DNA from: Candidatus Coproplasma stercoravium
Lineage (GTDB): Bacteria; Bacillota; Clostridia; Christensenellales; Borkfalkiaceae
Reading direction: 5' to 3'
Assembly (NCBI GenBank): GCA_018713165.1
Contig: DVFR01000019.1
Span: 1-64,000 of the forward strand
Length of the DNA stretch: 64,000 bases
A model generated the notes under the pieces. It did no database searches, was not told the origin of the DNA, and worked only from the letters and a program-made list of their open reading frames with translations. Positions 5,836 to 14,672 of this stretch are shown in pieces. Numbering within the stretch: the stretch's first letter is position 1; the number at the start of each line of letters is the position of its first letter. The position numbers and the translations under genes are program-made.

Positions 5836-5876
5836 GCGGAGCGCGCCCGTGAAAGGGGCGCGCTCCGCGCTTTTTT
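5836..5876 (+). terminator. Terminator upstream of the SPFH gene
   Basis: A 13-bp GC stem (GCGGAGCGCGCCC and complement) is followed by GCTTTTTT. It insulates the cassette starting at 5983 from upstream transcription. Confidence 0.85.
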
Positions 5877-5886
5877 ATATCAGCCC

Positions 5887-5915
5887 TTTACAAATTTGCA
5901 GTTTTATGTTAATAT
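5887..5915 (+). promoter_or_regulatory. Promoter of the ESCRT/TIR-like cassette
   Basis: TTTACA (5887-5892), 17-nt spacer, TAATAT (5910-5915), directly after a strong terminator. It is the only convincing promoter I see before the eight same-strand genes at 5983-14481, whose gaps are 74-118 nt. Confidence 0.7.
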
Positions 5916-5982: not shown

Positions 5983-6813
5983 ATGGCAACCGATTTGCAG
6001 GTCATTAAATACGAAGGCGACAACAGCGAACTTTTCAAGAGAATATGCGCCGACGGGCTCGACCCCGACGCAAAGCTCGTCGTGCCCGAAACCCACAACG
6101 CTATACTCATAAAAGACGGCGTTTTAATGGATACGCTCAACAGCGGCAGCTACGATATCTTTGAAGAGAAGTCGAGGCGCAAGTGCCGCAACGTGTCGGT
6201 CGAGGTGATTTATCTGTCTAAGACGGCGCGCCTCAAAGTTATGTGGGGCACCAAAACGCGCTTTTCCTTCCGTGACCCGCTTACCGACGTGCCCATAAAG
6301 GTGGGCGCGCACGGCGAGTTCGAGGTGCAGATTTGCAACCCGCGCAAGGCGTATATGGTGCTTATCGGCGCGGAGAACGAGTTCACGGTGCAGGACCTTA
6401 AAGACAGGCTGGCAACGCGCATGCTCAGCAAGGTCGAACCTGCGATAGCGGGCGCGATGCGCGCGGGCGGACTTACGTTCGACAGAATGAGCGAGCACAA
6501 GGACGAGATTGCGCAGTCAGTTCTGCCCGTGCTTTCAAAGATGTTCGAGGAGGACTACGGGCTTAAAATGTTCTCGTTCACCATCGCGAGCGTGGTTATT
6601 TCCGACGAGGATATCGCCGCGATAGAGGCGGCGCGCGCGGACGGAAACGTGCGCGGCGGCGTGTGTCCCCACTGCGGGGCGCCCTACGAAGAGGGCGCGA
6701 AGTTCTGCTCGGAGTGCGGCAGGGCGATATCGGGCAAGGTGTGCAAAAAGTGCGGCAAACTCAACGAGGACGACGCAAATTATTGCTCTTCCTGCGGCGA
6801 AAAGCTCGGCTGA
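5983..6813 (+). CDS. SPFH-domain protein with two C-terminal zinc ribbons
   Basis: A 276-aa protein of the bacterial SPFH (stomatin/prohibitin-like, YdjI-type) group, known or suspected to organise membrane patches. The SPFH domain covers about residues 5-215 (VVPETHNAILIKDG near 33-46; RFSFRDPLTDVPIKVG near 93-108). Two zinc ribbons follow: C228/C231/C242/C245 and C254/C257/C268/C271. No transmembrane helix is visible. Start 5983 follows GGGAGGA at 7 nt; an in-frame upstream start at 5896 lies inside the promoter. First gene of the cassette, and its zinc-ribbon theme recurs in three later genes. Confidence 0.87.
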   Translation: MATDLQVIKYEGDNSELFKRICADGLDPDAKLVVPETHNAILIKDGVLMDTLNSGSYDIFEEKSRRKCRNVSVEVIYLSKTARLKVMWGTKTRFSFRDPLTDVPIKVGAHGEFEVQICNPRKAYMVLIGAENEFTVQDLKDRLATRMLSKVEPAIAGAMRAGGLTFDRMSEHKDEIAQSVLPVLSKMFEEDYGLKMFSFTIASVVISDEDIAAIEAARADGNVRGGVCPHCGAPYEEGAKFCSECGRAISGKVCKKCGKLNEDDANYCSSCGEKLG

Positions 6814-6889
6814 GGCGGAAATTTACGGTAAAAACTTTGTATGCGCCCCGTGCGCATATACATAATTTATAAGTATAACGAGGTAAAAG

Positions 6890-7327
6890 ATGAACTTTTC
6901 TATGCTGGCGGCGCTGGAGCCGTACGAAATAGTCATAATAGTCGTCGTTGCGGCGGTGTTTGTGGGCATCATAATAGCGGCGCTCATATTTACGCGCAGG
7001 CGCAAGAGGAGCGTGGACGAAACGGTGCTCGAAAGCCGCGACGAGGTGAGCGAAAACGCGCACACAGTTCAGGTGCTCAAAGCGCTCGCGGAGGGCAAGA
7101 GCGAAGTTATCGCCGAGCTCGACGAGCTCTACGACAAGCTTTTGTATCTCACGCCCTCTGCCGACGACGAAGTCGCCGTTATCGACGAGAAGATAAAAAA
7201 CGCGCTCGGTGATATAAAGATAGAGCTCACCAAAACGCAGGGCAAGGACGACAGCGGCAAAACGGCGCAGTATATAGCCGATATAAAGGTATATATTGCC
7301 GAACGCGGCGTGTACACCGAAAGGTAA
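6890..7327 (+). CDS. Single-pass membrane protein of unknown function
   Basis: Not recognised as a known family. The 145-aa protein has one strong hydrophobic helix near residues 12-34 (EIVIIVVVAAVFVGIIIAAL) followed by a positive stop RRRKR, then a ~105-residue charged, helical cytosolic part (ELDELYDKLLYL, DEKIKNALGDIKIEL). That gives an N-out/C-in anchor topology by the positive-inside rule. GAGGT precedes the ATG. It lies between the SPFH protein and the two ESCRT-III-like proteins, so it may be their membrane partner (inference). Confidence 0.72.
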   Translation: MNFSMLAALEPYEIVIIVVVAAVFVGIIIAALIFTRRRKRSVDETVLESRDEVSENAHTVQVLKALAEGKSEVIAELDELYDKLLYLTPSADDEVAVIDEKIKNALGDIKIELTKTQGKDDSGKTAQYIADIKVYIAERGVYTER

Positions 7328-7407
7328 CGCGCCTCCCGCCGTACTGGAAGTGCCCAATATCGCATTCGGTCAAGGCGATATTTTCGTGAATTATAAAGGA
7401 GGTTTTT

Positions 7408-8016
7408 ATGTGGCCTTTTAAAAGTAAATACGATAAATTGAAGCGCGAGGACGTCGTCGACGCGATATGCAGCCTCGAAAAGCAGGAGGACGACCTCGAG
7501 GAGGCGATAAGCAGCCGTGCGAGGGAGATTGAGGAGCTGCTCGCAAAGGGCAGAAAGGAGACCAACCGCGAGCTCAAGCTCTTCTACGCCAAAAAGATAA
7601 CCTCCATGCGCGAGGAAAACCAGACCGACGTCAAGCGCGCGATGTATCTCATGTACAACATGAAGCTTCTGCGCAAGCTCAAGAGCACGATAGACGACAA
7701 CGAGTTTTTCATCAAAACGGGCAAGGTGTCGCTAGGCAATCTCCTCGCCGACCAGAAGGGGCTGGCGCAGTTTTTAAACAAGGCGCTCAATACCAAGGTG
7801 CGCAGCGAGCAGGTGCTCACCGACGCCGACGACACGTGGAACGAAATTCAGAGCGGCTACGAGGAGAACGAGCGCATTTACGGCGTCAACGAGCAGGACG
7901 ACGAGCTTCTCGCCATGTTTGAAACGGGCGAACAGCTCGACGCGGAGATGGGCGAGCTCGGCGTGAAAAACGAGGAAAAGAAGGCCGAGGCGCAGTCCGA
8001 CGAAAATTTACAATAG
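7408..8016 (+). CDS. ESCRT-III/Snf7-like helical protein A
   Basis: A 202-aa, almost wholly alpha-helical protein. It has a short amphipathic N-terminus (MWPFKSKYDKLKRED), a long charged helical pair (about residues 18-98), a break at TGKVSLGN (104-111), further helices to about 160, and an acidic C-terminus rich in Glu/Asp. Size, the hydrophobic MxxF start, the basic-then-acidic charge order and the helical hairpin resemble eukaryotic Snf7/CHMP and bacterial PspA/Vipp1 proteins. AAAGGAGG precedes the ATG. The next gene has the same design and a Vps4-like ATPase lies in the same cassette. The family call is by architecture only. Confidence 0.6.
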   Translation: MWPFKSKYDKLKREDVVDAICSLEKQEDDLEEAISSRAREIEELLAKGRKETNRELKLFYAKKITSMREENQTDVKRAMYLMYNMKLLRKLKSTIDDNEFFIKTGKVSLGNLLADQKGLAQFLNKALNTKVRSEQVLTDADDTWNEIQSGYEENERIYGVNEQDDELLAMFETGEQLDAEMGELGVKNEEKKAEAQSDENLQ

Positions 8017-8090
8017 ATTTGTATTGGCGCGGCAATATGCCGCAACGAACGCAATTTATAAATGCAAAAATTGTGTAAAGCGAGGATATT

Positions 8091-8675
8091 ATGGGGCTTT
8101 TTAAAAGCAGGGAAGAAAAGGAGTTTGAAAAAAAGCGGCTCATAAAGCGCACGGTCTACAATATGAACAAGCAGATTGACGCGCTCGAAGAGCAGAAAAA
8201 GGTGTTCGTGCAGAAGGCGGTTGAGGCGAAGAAGAACGGGCTCGAGGCGCAGTACAACCTCGCGCTCACCGGCTATAAGATGACCCTTTTGCAGCAGAAG
8301 CGCGCGCAGGAGATGCTTCTGAATTTTGAAATAACTTCGCAGATGAAGGATATGACGCTCATGACCAAGCAGTTTCTGGGCGGCATGAGCGTGTTGAGCC
8401 GCGAGATGGCAAAACTTGCCGACGATAAGGAGTTCATCGAGGTGCAGAAGCAGTTCGATATCGCCATGGGCAAGGCCGAACGCCAGGCGGAGCAGATGGA
8501 TTTATTTATGGAGACCAGCCAGGATTCGTTTGCCGACGCAGCCAAATCGGGCGCGGTTGACGACAAGGAGATAGAGCAGAGCATAGAACAGATGGCGGGC
8601 GCGGGAGAGTTTTCCGACGAGGCGATTGACAAGGAGCTCGAGGACCTCAAAAAGAAAATTCAGGCGCAGATATAG
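8091..8675 (+). CDS. ESCRT-III (Vps2/Vps24)-like protein B with MIM1-like tail
   Basis: A 194-aa helical protein starting MGLFKSREEK, very like the MGLFGK start of Vps24/CHMP3. Basic helix 1 is about residues 14-48 (MNKQIDALEEQKKVFVQKA). Helix 2 is 50-82, and the Met-rich middle (QMKDMTLMTKQF, GGMSVLSREMAKL) recalls the Vps2/CHMP2 core. The second half is acidic. The C-terminus carries D176-x-x-I179-x-x-E182-L183-x-x-L186-K187, which fits the MIM1 spacing [DE]xxLxxRLxxL[KR] except Glu for Arg. MIM1 is the motif by which ESCRT-III proteins bind the Vps4 MIT domain. I judge homology likely but unproven without structure search. Confidence 0.65.
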   Translation: MGLFKSREEKEFEKKRLIKRTVYNMNKQIDALEEQKKVFVQKAVEAKKNGLEAQYNLALTGYKMTLLQQKRAQEMLLNFEITSQMKDMTLMTKQFLGGMSVLSREMAKLADDKEFIEVQKQFDIAMGKAERQAEQMDLFMETSQDSFADAAKSGAVDDKEIEQSIEQMAGAGEFSDEAIDKELEDLKKKIQAQI

Positions 8676-8781
8676 CCCGTTTGCCGCTCTTTTTGAAGGC
8701 TGCCGCCGCGCGTTTTTTTCGCGTTTGCGCGGCAGAGTATTTTAGATTAATGCGCCGCAATACAGCGCGGCGGAGGTTTGA

Positions 8782-10485
8782 ATGAAAGCAAATAACGACG
8801 TTCGCCCCGTGTTCTGCGACACGTGCGGCGGGCCGCTCAGATATTCGCAGGACGGGTTGGAGGCAACCTGCCCCTACTGCGGAAACAGATATAATTTCAG
8901 GGGCGGCAAGAGCGAGGCGCTCTCGCTCGCGCTCAGCCGCGCAAATTCCTATCGTCTCAACTGCGATTTCGACGAGGCGATACGCGAATATACCCTTATC
9001 ACCGAACGCAACCCCGATGACGCAGAGGCGTGGTGGGGGCTGGCGCTCAGCAAATACGGCATCGAATACGTGCCCGACCCGCGCACGGGCATGCGCGTGC
9101 CCACCTGTCACCGCACCGTTAAGGAGAGCATACTTTGCGACGAAAGCTATTTAAACGCCATAAAATACGCCGCGCCCGCACAGGCGGAGTCGTACAGGCT
9201 GAAGGCCGAACAGATTGAGCGGCTCCAGTCGGGGATAAAGTCGCGGCTTGCTCAGGAGGAGAGTTTCGACGTGTTCCTCTGTTTCCGCTCGGCGGATAAA
9301 AACGGCGCGCCGACAAAAGAGCGCACCGTTGCGCGCAGGATTTACGACGAACTTACCCGCCGCGGCATAAACACCTTTTTCTCGGAAGAGAGTTTAAAGG
9401 GCAGGCTGGGCGAGGACTACGAGCCTATAATCTACAAGGCACTGTATAGCTGCAGATTTTTTATACTCATTGCCACCAGCGCCGAAAACGTGAACACGGC
9501 GTGGGTTAAAAACGAGTGGTCGCGCTTCCGCGACAGGGTGTATGAAGAGCGCCTGAGTTCGGCGTGCTGCGCCGTGTTCGAAAATATTACGCCCGCCGAC
9601 CTGCCTTCATTTTTGCGCGGGCAGGGCGTAAACCTTGCAAAGTACCCCGCAGGCGGGTATGAGATTGAAATAGCCGACGCGCTCGAACGGCGCTTCAAAA
9701 GCTTTGGCGAAGAGCGGCAGCCGCAGTATCGGGCCGATTCCCGCGACGGGCTCAACGCCCTTCTGGATAAGGGCAGGTACGCGCTCACGCGCGGCGACTT
9801 CGTTTCGGCGGCAGCGGCGTTCAGCTCTGCAATCGACGAGGACGGCGACTGCGGCGAGGCGTGGCTGGGCGCGTTCATGGCGGAGCTCGAGGTGCGCTCG
9901 ATAAAGAACGAAAAGAAGTTTGCGCAGGAAATTTCGAACAGGCTGTGGTCGTCGGGCACGACCGTCGCCGAATGCCGTCGCAGGCTGGCGGCGAACGAGC
10001 ACATTCTGTACGCGCTCTCGTCGCCCTACTATAAAAACGCCGTAAAGTATTCCACAGCGGCCATGGCGCGCACTCTTTCGGGCGCAAAGAGCTACATAAT
10101 GGACATGGCGGATAAGTGCAACGCCGCCCTTAAACTCAGTCTGAATGAATGCGCCTCGCGCGAGAGCGCGGCAAGCTCTGCAGAGAGCGGCTATAACGAA
10201 AGTTACCGGGGCGGTTACGACGACTACGACTATGATAATACTTCAAATACGGCGTCGAACGCCGCCGCTTTTGCGGGCGGCGCGATTGCCGGCGGACTTT
10301 TGGGCGCGTTTCTCGGCGGCAGGCGCAGAAGGCGCCGCCCGCCAGTTCATATGGGCTTTATGCCCCCGCCCAGGCCTCCCCGTCCCGCGCCCCCGCGCGG
10401 ACCGCGCGTAAGGCCTTTCGGCGGGCCCCGCGGGCCCCGTTTCGGCGGAGGCCCCCGCATGGGAGGCCCCCGCGGAAGAAGGTAG
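8782..10485 (+). CDS. Zinc-ribbon/TIR protein 1 with glycine-zipper and Arg/Pro/Gly tail
   Basis: A 567-aa multidomain protein. A zinc ribbon uses C12/C15/C30/C33, then a helical TPR-like segment spans about 43-155. The TIR domain is about 161-305 (SFDVFLCFRSAD at 161-172, FFILIATSAEN at 226-236, WVKNEW at 241-246). E245 aligns with the catalytic Glu of NADase TIRs, so NAD cleavage is possible. A second TPR-like region is about 324-370. A glycine-zipper hydrophobic stretch (about 495-513) leads into six Arg and a Pro/Gly/Arg tail. GGAGG precedes the ATG. The paralogue next door shares the first ~300 residues. Confidence 0.85.
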   Translation: MKANNDVRPVFCDTCGGPLRYSQDGLEATCPYCGNRYNFRGGKSEALSLALSRANSYRLNCDFDEAIREYTLITERNPDDAEAWWGLALSKYGIEYVPDPRTGMRVPTCHRTVKESILCDESYLNAIKYAAPAQAESYRLKAEQIERLQSGIKSRLAQEESFDVFLCFRSADKNGAPTKERTVARRIYDELTRRGINTFFSEESLKGRLGEDYEPIIYKALYSCRFFILIATSAENVNTAWVKNEWSRFRDRVYEERLSSACCAVFENITPADLPSFLRGQGVNLAKYPAGGYEIEIADALERRFKSFGEERQPQYRADSRDGLNALLDKGRYALTRGDFVSAAAAFSSAIDEDGDCGEAWLGAFMAELEVRSIKNEKKFAQEISNRLWSSGTTVAECRRRLAANEHILYALSSPYYKNAVKYSTAAMARTLSGAKSYIMDMADKCNAALKLSLNECASRESAASSAESGYNESYRGGYDDYDYDNTSNTASNAAAFAGGAIAGGLLGAFLGGRRRRRRPPVHMGFMPPPRPPRPAPPRGPRVRPFGGPRGPRFGGGPRMGGPRGRR

Positions 10486-10566
10486 CGCCGGGGGCAACGC
10501 GTTGCATATTCACGGATAATTGCGCTATATATGCGGGGCAATTTTATCCGAGGCAGAGGGAAATAT

Positions 10567-12297
10567 ATGAAAAATTACGTTCTTAACTGCGAATCGTGCG
10601 GCGGAGCGCTCGAATATTCGCCCGACGGGCTCTCGGCGGTCTGCCCGTACTGCGGCAATAAGTATAATTTCCGCGGAGCCAAGAGCGAGGCGCTCACTTT
10701 GGCGCTCAACCGTGCGAACGCCATGCGCGCGGCGTGCGACTTCGACGGCGCCATGCGCGAATATACTCTCATTACCGAACGCAATCCCGGCGACGCCGAG
10801 GCGTGGTGGGGGCTGGTTTTAAGCAAATACGGAATAGAGTACGTGCGCGACCCGCGTTCGGGTTTGCGCTTTCCCACCTGCCGCCGCACCATAAATAAAA
10901 GCATACTTTCGGACGAAAGTTATTTGAACGCCATAAAATATGCCGCGCCCGCACAGGCAGAGCAGTACAAATCGCGCGCGGCCGACATCGAGAGGCTTCA
11001 GAGCGCGATAAAGGCGCGGCTTGCGCAGGAGGAGGACTACGACGTGTTTCTCTCCTTCCGCTCGGCCGACGAAAACGGCGCGCCGACAAAAGAGCGCACT
11101 GTTGCGCGCAGAATATACGACGAACTCACCCGCCGCGGCATAAAGACCTTCTATTCGGAGGAGAGCTTAAAGGGCAGGCTGGGCGAGGACTATGAACCGA
11201 TAATCTACAAGGCGCTGTACAGCTGCAAATTTTTTATACTCATTGCCGCCTGCGCCGAAAATATAAACACGCCGTGGGTTAAAAACGAGTGGTCGCGCTT
11301 CCGCGACCGCGCGGAGGAAGAGGGGCTGTACGGCGCCTGCTGCGCCGTTTTTTGCGATATTTCTCCCTCCGACCTTCCGCCCTTTCTGCGTTCGCGGCAG
11401 GGCGTAAACCTTGCAAAGTATCCCGCAGGCGGGTATGAGATAGAACTTGCCGACAATATAGAGTCGCTCCTTTCGCGTTCATCCTTCCGCACGGCAGTAA
11501 AAACGGGCGCAAAGGCGCAGAATATTTCGGGCACGGCGTTGCTCACGCGGGCGTGGCAGGACCTCGCCGACGAAATGTACGAGAGCGCGAACACCAAATT
11601 TTTGCAGGCGCTCGAGGCAGACCCGTACTGCGGAGAGGCGTGGTGGGGTTGTTTCCTTGCGGGGCACAACGCGTACAGCGCGGGACTTGCCGCACAGAAT
11701 CTGACCTACGAGGACGCGCTCACGCTCAAAAACGACAGGAATCTGAAAAACGCCGAGAGGTACGGCGACGGGGAGCTCAAAGGCAAGGTGGCAAATTTCC
11801 GCAAAATGTGCGCCTTCCGCAGCAGCGAGCTTGCGGCGGCGTGCGATGCGGAGGCGAATGCGCTCGGCCGTTCCCTCGGGGAGCTGGCCGAACAGCGCAA
11901 AAGCGTTGCCGCCCTGCGCGAAAAGAAGTTCAAAAAGTTGGAGCGCTGCCGCAAAACGGCCTCGCGCGACCCTAAAATCATGATAAGGATGCTCGCAGTA
12001 GCAGTTATTTTCTTCATCATGATATTCAGCATAATAGGCGTGGTTGCCGAAGAAGCCGTGCTCTTCTACGTCGGTATGGGCATGGCGGGCATGTGCGCGC
12101 TGGCGATGATAATGAGTTATTTCGCAATGAAGCACAACGTCGCCGAGGCGAAGAGCCAGTCGGCACAGTTGGAGGCGGATATTGCCGGGCTTGACGAAAG
12201 GCTGAGAAAAATGGGCGAAGAGCGCGAAAAGGGCGAGATTGCCCTCGACGAAAAGAGAAGGCAGTCGGCGGCGTTCAAGGCAATATTCAATGTGTAA
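10567..12297 (+). CDS. Zinc-ribbon/TIR protein 2 with two-helix membrane anchor
   Basis: A 576-aa paralogue of the preceding gene. Zinc ribbon C8/C11/C26/C29, TPR-like region about 40-150, TIR domain about 157-302 (DYDVFLSFRSAD at 157-168; WVKNEW at 237-242 with candidate catalytic E241), TPR-like segment about 327-370. The C-terminal half differs: a basic coiled coil, two hydrophobic helices (about 471-492 and 497-520) and a final coiled coil (about 525-570). Start 10567 follows AGAGGGA; an in-frame ATG at 10531 has no ribosome site. Duplication followed by replacement of the C-terminus is the simplest history. Confidence 0.85.
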   Translation: MKNYVLNCESCGGALEYSPDGLSAVCPYCGNKYNFRGAKSEALTLALNRANAMRAACDFDGAMREYTLITERNPGDAEAWWGLVLSKYGIEYVRDPRSGLRFPTCRRTINKSILSDESYLNAIKYAAPAQAEQYKSRAADIERLQSAIKARLAQEEDYDVFLSFRSADENGAPTKERTVARRIYDELTRRGIKTFYSEESLKGRLGEDYEPIIYKALYSCKFFILIAACAENINTPWVKNEWSRFRDRAEEEGLYGACCAVFCDISPSDLPPFLRSRQGVNLAKYPAGGYEIELADNIESLLSRSSFRTAVKTGAKAQNISGTALLTRAWQDLADEMYESANTKFLQALEADPYCGEAWWGCFLAGHNAYSAGLAAQNLTYEDALTLKNDRNLKNAERYGDGELKGKVANFRKMCAFRSSELAAACDAEANALGRSLGELAEQRKSVAALREKKFKKLERCRKTASRDPKIMIRMLAVAVIFFIMIFSIIGVVAEEAVLFYVGMGMAGMCALAMIMSYFAMKHNVAEAKSQSAQLEADIAGLDERLRKMGEEREKGEIALDEKRRQSAAFKAIFNV

Positions 12298-12389
12298 AAA
12301 TATGCGGACGCGTTATAGCGCAGAGCGGTAAAATAACGGCTTAAATTAAATTGCCCCGCGCATATGCGCGAAGCAATCGGGGGTAAAAC

Positions 12390-13508
12390 ATGTACGACCT
12401 GAACATGAGCATGCTCAACGACCAGTTCAATATGTATTATGCCGCTGCAAAAAAGGCATACGAGGGCGGCAACGGCGCGCTTGCAAAGCGCAACTATATG
12501 CTCGCCGCCGAAACGCTGTTAAAGCTTGCCAAAAACTCCACTCCCAAGCTCAAAGAGGCGCGCGTCGAACGCGCCAAACGGCTCATATCCATAGCCGAAA
12601 ATATCGACGACGCGGTGGCGCGCAAAAAGTTCCCCGCGGGGGAGGACATGGAGGAGAAACAGGACGACGACGGCGGGCGCGAGTGGGCGGCGGCAGAGGT
12701 GCCCGACGTGCACTTTTCCGACATAGCGGGGCTGGACGACGTTAAAAAGGCGATAACCACCCGCATGATAAACCCCGTAAAGTACCCCGAAAAGTACAAA
12801 CTTTACAACAAAAAGACGGGCGGCGGCGTGCTGCTCTTCGGCCCTCCGGGGACGGGCAAGACGATGATTGCAAAGGCAATTGCCTGCGAGGTCGGCGCCA
12901 AATTTTATGCCGTAAAGGGCTCCGACGTGGTCAGCAAATGGGTGGGCGAATCGGAAAAGAACATAAACTCGCTCTTTGAAACGGCGCGCGCCGACGACCT
13001 TGCCATAATTTTTATCGACGAAATGGACTCGCTCATAGGCAGGCGCGGCGTGGATACTCACAACGACAAGCGCGTAAACGAATTTTTGCAGCAGATAGAC
13101 GGTTTTTCGGGCAAGAGCCCCAACCTTCTGCTTCTCGGCGCAACCAACCGCCCGTGGGATATCGACGGCGCGGCGCTCCGCCCGGGCAGGTTTTCGCAAA
13201 AGATATACGTACCCCTGCCCGACGAGCCCGCACGAAGATTTTTGTTTGAAAAGTCGCTCAAAGGCGCGCCCGTTGCCGATGACGTGGACGTCGGCGAGCT
13301 TGTAAAACTTACCGACGGCTATTCGGGCGCCGACATAGAGGAGGTGTGCGACCGCGCGAAAGAGGATCCGCTTTTAAAGTCCATCTCGACCGACTCCGTC
13401 GTGCCCGTAACGCGCGCCGACTTTTTAAACGCGCTCGAACTCGTCCCTCCCTCCGTATCCGAAAAGGAGATAGAGCGGTTTGAAAGGTTTATCGAAACGG
13501 GCGAGTAA
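12390..13508 (+). CDS. Vps4-like AAA ATPase with MIT-like N-terminal domain
   Basis: A 372-aa single-AAA protein. Residues about 10-75 form a predicted three-helix bundle with MIT-like spacing (AAAKKAYEGG, ALAKRNYMLAAETLLKLAK, RVERAKRLISIAENI). After an acidic linker the AAA core has Walker A GPPGTGKT (151-158), pore loop KWVGESEK (183-190, Vps4-like), Walker B IIFIDEMDSL (206-215), sensor-1 GATN (250-253), arginine fingers R264/R267 and VPLPDEPAR (274-282) as in the Vps4/katanin/spastin clade. ALRPGRF is closer to FtsH/Cdc48. It has no membrane helix or protease, so it is not FtsH. With two ESCRT-III-like genes in the same cassette, filament disassembly is the likely job. Confidence 0.82.
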   Translation: MYDLNMSMLNDQFNMYYAAAKKAYEGGNGALAKRNYMLAAETLLKLAKNSTPKLKEARVERAKRLISIAENIDDAVARKKFPAGEDMEEKQDDDGGREWAAAEVPDVHFSDIAGLDDVKKAITTRMINPVKYPEKYKLYNKKTGGGVLLFGPPGTGKTMIAKAIACEVGAKFYAVKGSDVVSKWVGESEKNINSLFETARADDLAIIFIDEMDSLIGRRGVDTHNDKRVNEFLQQIDGFSGKSPNLLLLGATNRPWDIDGAALRPGRFSQKIYVPLPDEPARRFLFEKSLKGAPVADDVDVGELVKLTDGYSGADIEEVCDRAKEDPLLKSISTDSVVPVTRADFLNALELVPPSVSEKEIERFERFIETGE

Positions 13509-13626
13509 AATATAAAAGGTGGATAAAAATAAAAAAATCATATCGCAATTTTTTTGCCTATGGGCGGTTAATTGCGGCATAGTGCGCGTGTAATTTATAA
13601 AAATTGTAAATTAACGGGGTGTAAAA

Positions 13627-14481
13627 ATGGGCAATATATGCAGAACGTGCGGCGGCGAGTGCGTGCTCGTCCGCGACGACGGCGAAGTTAAGGAATACAG
13701 ATGTGTCTGTTGCGACAATATCTATCTCGTGCGCAGGGGCGAACAGTTTCCCTCGTTTGAAGAGCGCAGGGCGGCTAAGCCCGCTTTCGCAAAGCCCGCC
13801 CCGCAGGCAGGCGGCGGAGACCCGGCGTTGCCGCGCGCCGTTAACGGATATACACGGGCCGAAAGGGCCGCGCCCGAAGAGACGGGCGGCGGGCGGCTGG
13901 ACGGCGCAGGCGTATACGCAAAGTGCATAAACAGCGTTATAGAGGTGCGCGCGCGCCGCAAAAATACAATTTTTTCGGGCTCGGGTTTCGTAATTGAAGG
14001 CGGATATGCCATAACCAACGCGCACGTCGTGGCGGAGGGCGGAACTCCTGCCGAAAGGATAGAGGCGTACGCCTGCGGCAAGACATTTACCGCCGTGATT
14101 GTGGAGGTTGGTACAAAGAAATTCGGCGATGACCTCGCGCTACTTAAACTTGCGGGCGCACCCGCGGAGCTTAAAGCCGTTAAGTTTGCCGAAGAGGATG
14201 AGATAAAGAACGGGCAGACGCTGTTCGTCATAGGCAACTCGCTCGGCGGCGGCACCTGCATAACCAGCGGAATCGTGTCGGACAGGCGCCGCACGCTCGA
14301 AGGCAAGCCCAGGCTGATGACCGACTGCGCCGTAAACCGCGGCAACTCGGGCGGCCCCGTGTTCAACGACCGCGGCGAGGTCGCGGGGGCGATTGTCGCC
14401 GTTACCACGACGGCTGAGGGAATGAACTACGCCGTACCCGTCGACGTCGTGCAAAAATTCATAAAATTCTGCGGCCTCTGA
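13627..14481 (+). CDS. Zinc-ribbon trypsin-like serine protease
   Basis: A 284-aa cytosolic protease of the trypsin/DegP-like fold. The N-terminal zinc ribbon uses C5/C8/C26/C29, then a Pro/Ala/Gly-rich linker (about 45-92). The catalytic triad is H133 (ITNAHVV), D169 (DDLALLKL) and S241 (NRGNSGGPVF), all intact. No signal peptide, transmembrane helix or PDZ domain is present, unlike HtrA proteins, so it should act inside the cell. It closes the cassette and shares the zinc-ribbon start with both TIR proteins, suggesting recruitment to the same complex. Targets unknown. Confidence 0.84.
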   Translation: MGNICRTCGGECVLVRDDGEVKEYRCVCCDNIYLVRRGEQFPSFEERRAAKPAFAKPAPQAGGGDPALPRAVNGYTRAERAAPEETGGGRLDGAGVYAKCINSVIEVRARRKNTIFSGSGFVIEGGYAITNAHVVAEGGTPAERIEAYACGKTFTAVIVEVGTKKFGDDLALLKLAGAPAELKAVKFAEEDEIKNGQTLFVIGNSLGGGTCITSGIVSDRRRTLEGKPRLMTDCAVNRGNSGGPVFNDRGEVAGAIVAVTTTAEGMNYAVPVDVVQKFIKFCGL

Positions 14482-14643: not shown

Positions 14644-14672
14644 TTGACAGAACGGCTTTTCGGTCATATAAT
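14644..14672 (+). promoter_or_regulatory. Consensus promoter of the MacB-type ABC operon
   Basis: TTGACA (14644-14649), 17-nt spacer, TATAAT (14667-14672): a perfect sigma-A promoter, about 95 nt before the start codon. Confidence 0.88.

Follow-up and report, generated by a model that had tools for sequence, protein, structure and literature searches.

The window analysed here is a stretch of 64,000 nucleotides from Candidatus Coproplasma stercoravium (assembly GCA_018713165.1, contig DVFR01000019.1, positions 1 to 64,000), and the subject of this account is an operon at positions 5983-14481 that places two ESCRT-III-like proteins beside an AAA ATPase. The operon holds eight genes, all on the plus strand and separated by gaps of 45-118 bp, exactly as an earlier sequence-only reading of this DNA had laid them out.

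The first gene (5983-6813) opens the conserved core and encodes an SPFH protein with a Band_7_1 domain (Pfam E = 3.6e-15) and a C-terminal double zinc ribbon (1.3e-15), in agreement with the SPFH scaffold that had been proposed. The second core gene (6890-7327) answers to the predicted membrane peptide: hydropathy gives its small product a single transmembrane (TM) helix starting at about residue 14, and a Pfam scan assigned it to no significant family. They are followed by the genes of two helical proteins, H1 and H2, two TIR proteins, the ATPase and a protease.

How constant is this arrangement? Among homologous loci with enough flanking sequence, which all come from uncultured gut Clostridia of one order, the order SPFH, TM protein, H1, H2, AAA ATPase is complete in 62 of 63, so that the five-gene set lies far beyond chance. 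The core co-occurs strictly with the ATPase, and a lack of such co-occurrence, which the sequence-only reading had named as a refutation, is thus not seen. The genes for TIR/zinc-ribbon proteins and proteases differ from locus to locus in number and position. The operon thus consists of a core of five genes and of partners that can be exchanged, and the TIR proteins and protease, counted by the sequence-only reading as members of the set, are indeed present in the window but optional elsewhere.

The distribution of the core is patchy. Of 151 genomes of the family, 14 carry an H2 homologue, which in two is a weak match; a class-wide sample (391 genomes) yielded three genomes with an H2 match, all in the same order, and a phylum-wide sample (398 genomes) yielded no homologue besides the genome itself, so that neither sample contained one outside the order. 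When 84,980 species genomes were scanned by pattern, a search that would miss more diverged relatives, 80 of 88 loci were kept, nearly all labelled as metagenome-assembled genomes of uncultured Clostridia, Christensenella or Ca. Coproplasma/Caccovivens; the core gene set co-occurs in about 80 species. A scan of the viral_contigs set found no homologue. Where two loci have H2 proteins that are at least 80% identical, they share their upstream neighbours in about half of the cases; below 80% they rarely do, and there is thus no fixed site.

The ESCRT-III-like pair and its motor

The products of H1 (7408-8016) and H2 (8091-8675), first described as Snf7/Vps24-like helical proteins, are each modelled by AlphaFold, on homologue alignments, as a long hairpin followed by shorter helices (in H1, residues 13-50 and 54-96), and the ESCRT-III-like hairpin sought by structure prediction is thus the one predicted. 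When the models are compared with the PDB by Foldseek, the top eight matches of H1 are archaeal CdvB2 filaments only (probability 0.91-1.00), and those leading for H2 are Asgard ESCRT-IIIB, CHMP2A-CHMP3, Vipp1 and Loki CHMP4-7. ESCRT-III is therefore ranked first for two separate proteins, and the best nine entries of the VIA comparison of H2 are likewise all ESCRT-III. No Foldseek E-value for H1 or H2 falls below 0.001, and a structural Z of about 10 is within the range that unrelated helical bundles reach; for this reason the support from sequence matters.

Such support is found in the homologues. Snf7 is the most frequent Pfam family among those of H2 (7 of 12, 11 of 59, and 8 of 31 diverged ones), and two diverged homologues pass the curated cut-off of 27.3 bits: that of locus L192 with 34.0 bits and that of L186 with 27.9 bits. 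These matches span 126-151 residues, and the L186 match covers profile positions 4-151 of 171. A deep H2 profile scores 34.2 against CHMP3/Vps24/Snf7/Shrub, compared with 17.4 for the best of 40 shuffles and 14.7 for the reversed profile; the CHMP3 and Snf7 reference sequences used match PDB chains almost or fully over the stretch concerned. The profiles of H1 and H2 are colinear over 163 columns (E 0.0014, against 0.28 when reversed). Runs of hhalign with shallow alignments stay near noise, and a clear signal emerges only from the more diverse alignment of H2; searches of PDB sequences with the H1 and H2 profiles found no ESCRT-III chain. The likeness is thus visible only through fold, Pfam Snf7 and profile-profile comparison, and by predicted fold and family signal H1 and H2 are ESCRT-III-like.

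One further element may link H2 to the ATPase. Its variable C-terminus closes with a conserved helix that has MIM1 spacing (residues 179-188, IDKELEDLKK; 8625-8654) and recurs in 53 of 59 homologues, against 2% of shuffled tails, and it can be regarded as a putative MIT-interacting motif of the MIM1 type. An identity with PspA was considered and rejected, PspA_IM30 (PF04012) being unmatched in the organism's own genome. This genome (G000), in an assembly that is 94% complete, has neither a PspA_IM30 match nor an FtsH above cut-off, either of which may be due to assembly gaps.

As for the motor, the gene at 12390-13508 encodes a classical AAA ATPase (Pfam AAA 1.3e-40) with Walker A GPPGTGKT and Walker B IIFIDE. 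The NCBIfam model CdvC aligns to residues 6-369 of 372 with 218 bits, and CDC48, on the AAA part, reaches a higher 244 bits. A Vps4_C match (PF09336) scores 26.1 bits over a cut-off of 21.3 and discriminates weakly, as it also arises in M. jannaschii.

The N-terminal domain (12390-12608), read earlier as MIT-like, is likely an MIT domain, to judge from its sequence matches: Pfam MIT is found in 5 of 12 ATPase homologues (best 1.9e-4), and a PDB search returned chain 2mpk of chitin synthase 1, an MIT domain, at E 0.0084 amid unrelated chains of similar E-value, with Vps4 MIT domains at E 0.9-5. The evidence for this part of the sequence-only reading is moderate.

Is the ATPase then a Vps4? In a tree of AAA domains, in which long branches are present, all references (human and yeast Vps4, p97/Cdc48 and FtsH, without archaeal CdvC) form one clade with support of 98/97, and the ATPases of the window type fall outside it. 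On this tree, strict Vps4 orthology is rejected. The earlier designation holds for the architecture but not for the AAA domain, and the motor can best be described as having a Vps4-like architecture without being a Vps4 orthologue.

Diverged relatives tell more about the motors. A search with a diverged ESCRT-III-like domain covered 347 genomes of the order, of which 35 gave a match, in 20 of 137 sampled genera. In L031 such a domain is fused to a classical AAA, in L186:7966-9633 to a RuvB-like AAA, and in four loci (L184:9769-11670, L191:9219-10754, L197:876-2798 and L032:3975-6434) to an FtsK/SpoIIIE motor (Pfam E 2e-28 to 8e-47). The MIT-like domain is carried by classical AAA proteins, by an ATPase of L186 read as CbxX-type (profile E 1e-15) and, weakly (E 0.003), by a RuvB-like protein, L198:5791-8325. 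Because direct fusions exist, this genomic context suggests that filament and motor work together, and the diversity of motors among the relatives argues for repeated recruitment. The ATPase of the window looks like an independently recruited motor instead of a Vps4 orthologue.

Two variants may be mentioned here. The cluster L031:3341-16048 holds ESCRT-III-like, ESCRT-III-AAA fusion, MIT-AAA, protease and SPFH genes, together with three TerD-like genes named by eye. In L053, L054 and L055, an MIT-like AAA (37-40% identical) stands beside a protease gene, a gene of leucine-rich repeat (LRR) type, or both; no ESCRT-III gene was recognised near the AAA gene in these short contigs, which limit the view.

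TIR proteins, protease and linked LRR proteins

The two TIR proteins foreseen by the sequence-only reading, with their candidate catalytic glutamates, are both in place. TIR1 (8782-10485) consists of an N-terminal zinc ribbon, TPR and TIR, beyond which lie a hydrophobic Ala/Gly stretch and an Arg/Pro-rich tail; TIR2 (10531-12297) has the same three domains followed by two C-terminal TM helices. Their TIR_2 matches in Pfam are 2.5e-8 and 5.3e-9, and both carry the glutamate of a WVKNE sequence (WxxxE motif), E245 in TIR1 and E253 in TIR2, so that by motif they would be NADase-competent.

The residue aligned to this glutamate was compared in 78 zinc-ribbon proteins, which include both window TIRs: it is Glu in 42 (the other 40 being linked proteins or copies), Gln in one and hydrophobic in 35. 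The loci fall into subtypes in this respect. One keeps the catalytic Glu in nearly every linked TIR and frequently has an HtrA-like protease with an intact triad; the other lacks the TIR Glu throughout, in about 35 linked proteins, most of them proteins of about 1250 residues encoded 3' of the ATPase. Because of this loss, depletion of nicotinamide adenine dinucleotide (NAD) is ruled out as a universal output. The long proteins of subtype II, such as L084:11754-15569, combine a zinc ribbon, TPR, the Glu-less TIR-like domain and TM helices with a GLUG-type C-terminus (Pfam 7.4e-4, just under the cut-off).

Among 90 linked records, some of them duplicated, a TM helix is predicted in 73 and LRR-like repeats in 15. 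Several of the LRR-bearing proteins are ordered TIR, TM, LRR, and one joins LRR_5 (1e-48) to TIR_2 (9e-10); in such a topology the TIR end would be cytoplasmic and the recognition end outside. At L123:13504-17940, and also in L130, L145, L060, L061 and L183, operon-linked proteins have leucine-rich repeats of BspA type along with TIR and TM helices.

The last gene of the operon (13627-14481) encodes a trypsin-like protease of HtrA type (Trypsin_2 9.6e-29), whose His, Asp and Ser motifs are kept, as the triad had been said to be. Its N-terminus shows a zinc-ribbon-like Cys motif, no TM helix is predicted, and its Pfam matches contain no PDZ domain.

A proposed bacterial ESCRT-like membrane-remodelling module

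What could such a set of genes do? The operon is probably a bacterial ESCRT-like membrane-remodelling module, anchored by its SPFH protein and provided with TIR and protease outputs. A patch of inner membrane would be set apart by the SPFH and single-pass TM proteins, and there H1 and H2 would co-polymerise. The AAA ATPase may dock through its MIT-like domain onto the MIM1-like tail of H2 and extract subunits, which would bring about filament turnover and the remodelling or repair of the membrane. As outputs, the zinc-ribbon protease and the zinc-ribbon/TPR/TIR proteins, which are linked to the membrane, would be drawn to this patch too and give a response, presumably triggered by membrane damage or invasion, that may involve NAD cleavage. 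TIR proteins, protease and patchy distribution together are most naturally read as a sign of surveillance for membrane damage or phage, and an anti-phage role is plausible.

The model of recruitment by SPFH has its precedent in B. subtilis, where the SPFH protein YdjI recruits the ESCRT-III homologue PspA (PMC8581546); in ydjFGHI the zinc-ribbon SPFH YdjI is encoded with this ESCRT-III superfamily protein (PMC8581546, PMC11237479). Both operons place a Band_7 SPFH with a C-terminal zinc ribbon beside an ESCRT-III superfamily gene, but ydjFGHI has PspA in place of the Snf7-like subunits and has no MIT-AAA ATPase, TIR or protease. Bacterial VPS4-like AAA ATPases, such as ACB74714.1, have been reported with snf7 displaced by an unrelated gene for TPR and six TM helices, and some PspA/Snf7-like genes adjoin other AAA proteins (PMC11237479). 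The present ATPase would share the MIT-AAA type with the former, whereas its operon has two ESCRT-III-like genes.

The literature that was found, including a recent survey, places systems of ESCRT-III with Vps4 only in archaea and eukaryotes, and no description of this gene set was found in the openly licensed literature. With the archaeal and eukaryotic systems (CdvB/CdvC) the operon shares paired ESCRT-III-like proteins beside an ATPase with an MIT-like N-terminus, and a MIM1-like tail, here on H2. Unlike them, it is bacterial, has an AAA domain outside the Vps4 group and other motors in its relatives, and includes SPFH, TIR and protease partners.

As regards defence systems, IetAS also joins an AAA ATPase to a serine protease, and the ATPase matches the PADLOC IetA models (8.9e-38); however, its NCBIfam IetA score is 112 against a cut-off of 510, and the protease is trypsin-like. 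TIR-based anti-phage systems share the TIR domain with the WxxxE Glu. Both differ from the operon in its ESCRT-like core and in the Glu-less TIR-like domains of some linked proteins. The proteins joining TIR, TM and leucine-rich repeats recall Toll-like receptors in architecture only; their order is reversed, with TIR N-terminal, and their repeats are of BspA type, so that this is an analogy and nothing else.

Several points weigh against the module as proposed, beyond the Foldseek E-values and the AAA tree. Model confidence is moderate, with a predicted local distance difference test (pLDDT) of 66.8 and a predicted template modelling score (pTM) of 0.44 for H2, and 64.0 and 0.50 for H1. Neither window protein has a significant Pfam match, both lying below the Snf7 cut-off. 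The N-terminal domain of more diverged ATPases scores as TPR, the second subtype lacks the TIR Glu, and PADLOC with NCBIfam detects no complete known anti-phage system, giving partial TIR, AAA and protease matches.

Since the Glu-less subtype exists, a role in repair or as a scaffold has to be considered, and the strongest rival is envelope maintenance without immunity, in which the core acts as PspA does with its SPFH partner YdjI, mending the membrane or partitioning it, and the TIR domains serve as scaffolds for protein interaction. It would account for about 35 loci with the whole core, a Glu-less TIR-like domain and a linked GLUG-type protein; the SPFH-PspA pairing sets an example (PMC8581546), and in a genome without a PspA_IM30 protein the operon could take that role. 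Nevertheless, the conserved Glu and frequent intact-triad protease of the other subtype, and an occurrence in 14 of 151 family genomes that is unlike housekeeping, make it rather unlikely. Less likely still, and improbable on the whole, is a true Vps4 with ESCRT-III gained from archaea by horizontal transfer: the near full-length CdvC alignment, the Vps4_C match and the nearness of the H1 fold to CdvB2 speak for it, but CDC48 outscores CdvC, the relatives exchange motors, and the tree, despite lacking CdvC, joins Vps4, p97 and FtsH apart from these ATPases. That H1 and H2 are unrelated hairpins resembling ESCRT-III by coincidence of fold is very improbable, for although model confidence is moderate, helical bundles reach middling Z by chance and PDB profile searches gave no ESCRT-III chain, two homologues pass the Snf7 cut-off, ESCRT-III ranks first for each protein separately, the H2 profile match is well over its shuffled and reversed controls, and the MIM1-like tail adjoins an MIT-like ATPase.

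The membrane-remodelling module may also be part of a larger story, which we offer as a tentative idea with more doubt than confidence. This order of gut Clostridia may have evolved an ESCRT family of its own, in which a single conserved set of ESCRT-III-like filaments is served by several motors that were recruited independently (classical AAA, CbxX-type, RuvB-like and FtsK) and are joined to it through MIT-like domains or direct fusion. This family would sense the membrane at the core of an immune system that also has TIR proteins and TIR-TM-LRR receptors. If the module is what it seems, a bacterial pair of ESCRT-III-like proteins that has an MIT-type ATPase of its own and is conserved in about 80 species would revise the view that such systems belong to archaea and eukaryotes only. 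Independent recruitment of ESCRT motors could then be put to the test, and membrane remodelling of ESCRT type would be tied to TIR proteins in bacteria.

Flanking sequence signals

The sequence-only reading put all eight genes behind one promoter. A terminator-like stem-loop (5836-5868, plus strand; 13-bp stem, 12 G-C) lies upstream of the operon, and between it and the SPFH gene is a promoter-like site on the same strand (5887-5915) that matches 9 of 12 positions, with TG ahead of the second hexamer. The site is thus there, but at a frequency that does not exceed chance, the window having 5 sites of this kind and shuffles 4.7 +/- 2.2; a single promoter driving the eight genes is no more than plausible. 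Rfam and tRNA scans of the window gave no features. The sequence AATTTATAA stands upstream of three operon genes (6864-6872, 8053-8061 and 13592-13600), and the window as a whole has five copies where 1.1 would be expected. Lastly, a perfect TTGACA-17-TATAAT sigma-70 promoter-like site is found 3' of the operon at 14644-14672, ahead of ABC-transporter genes.

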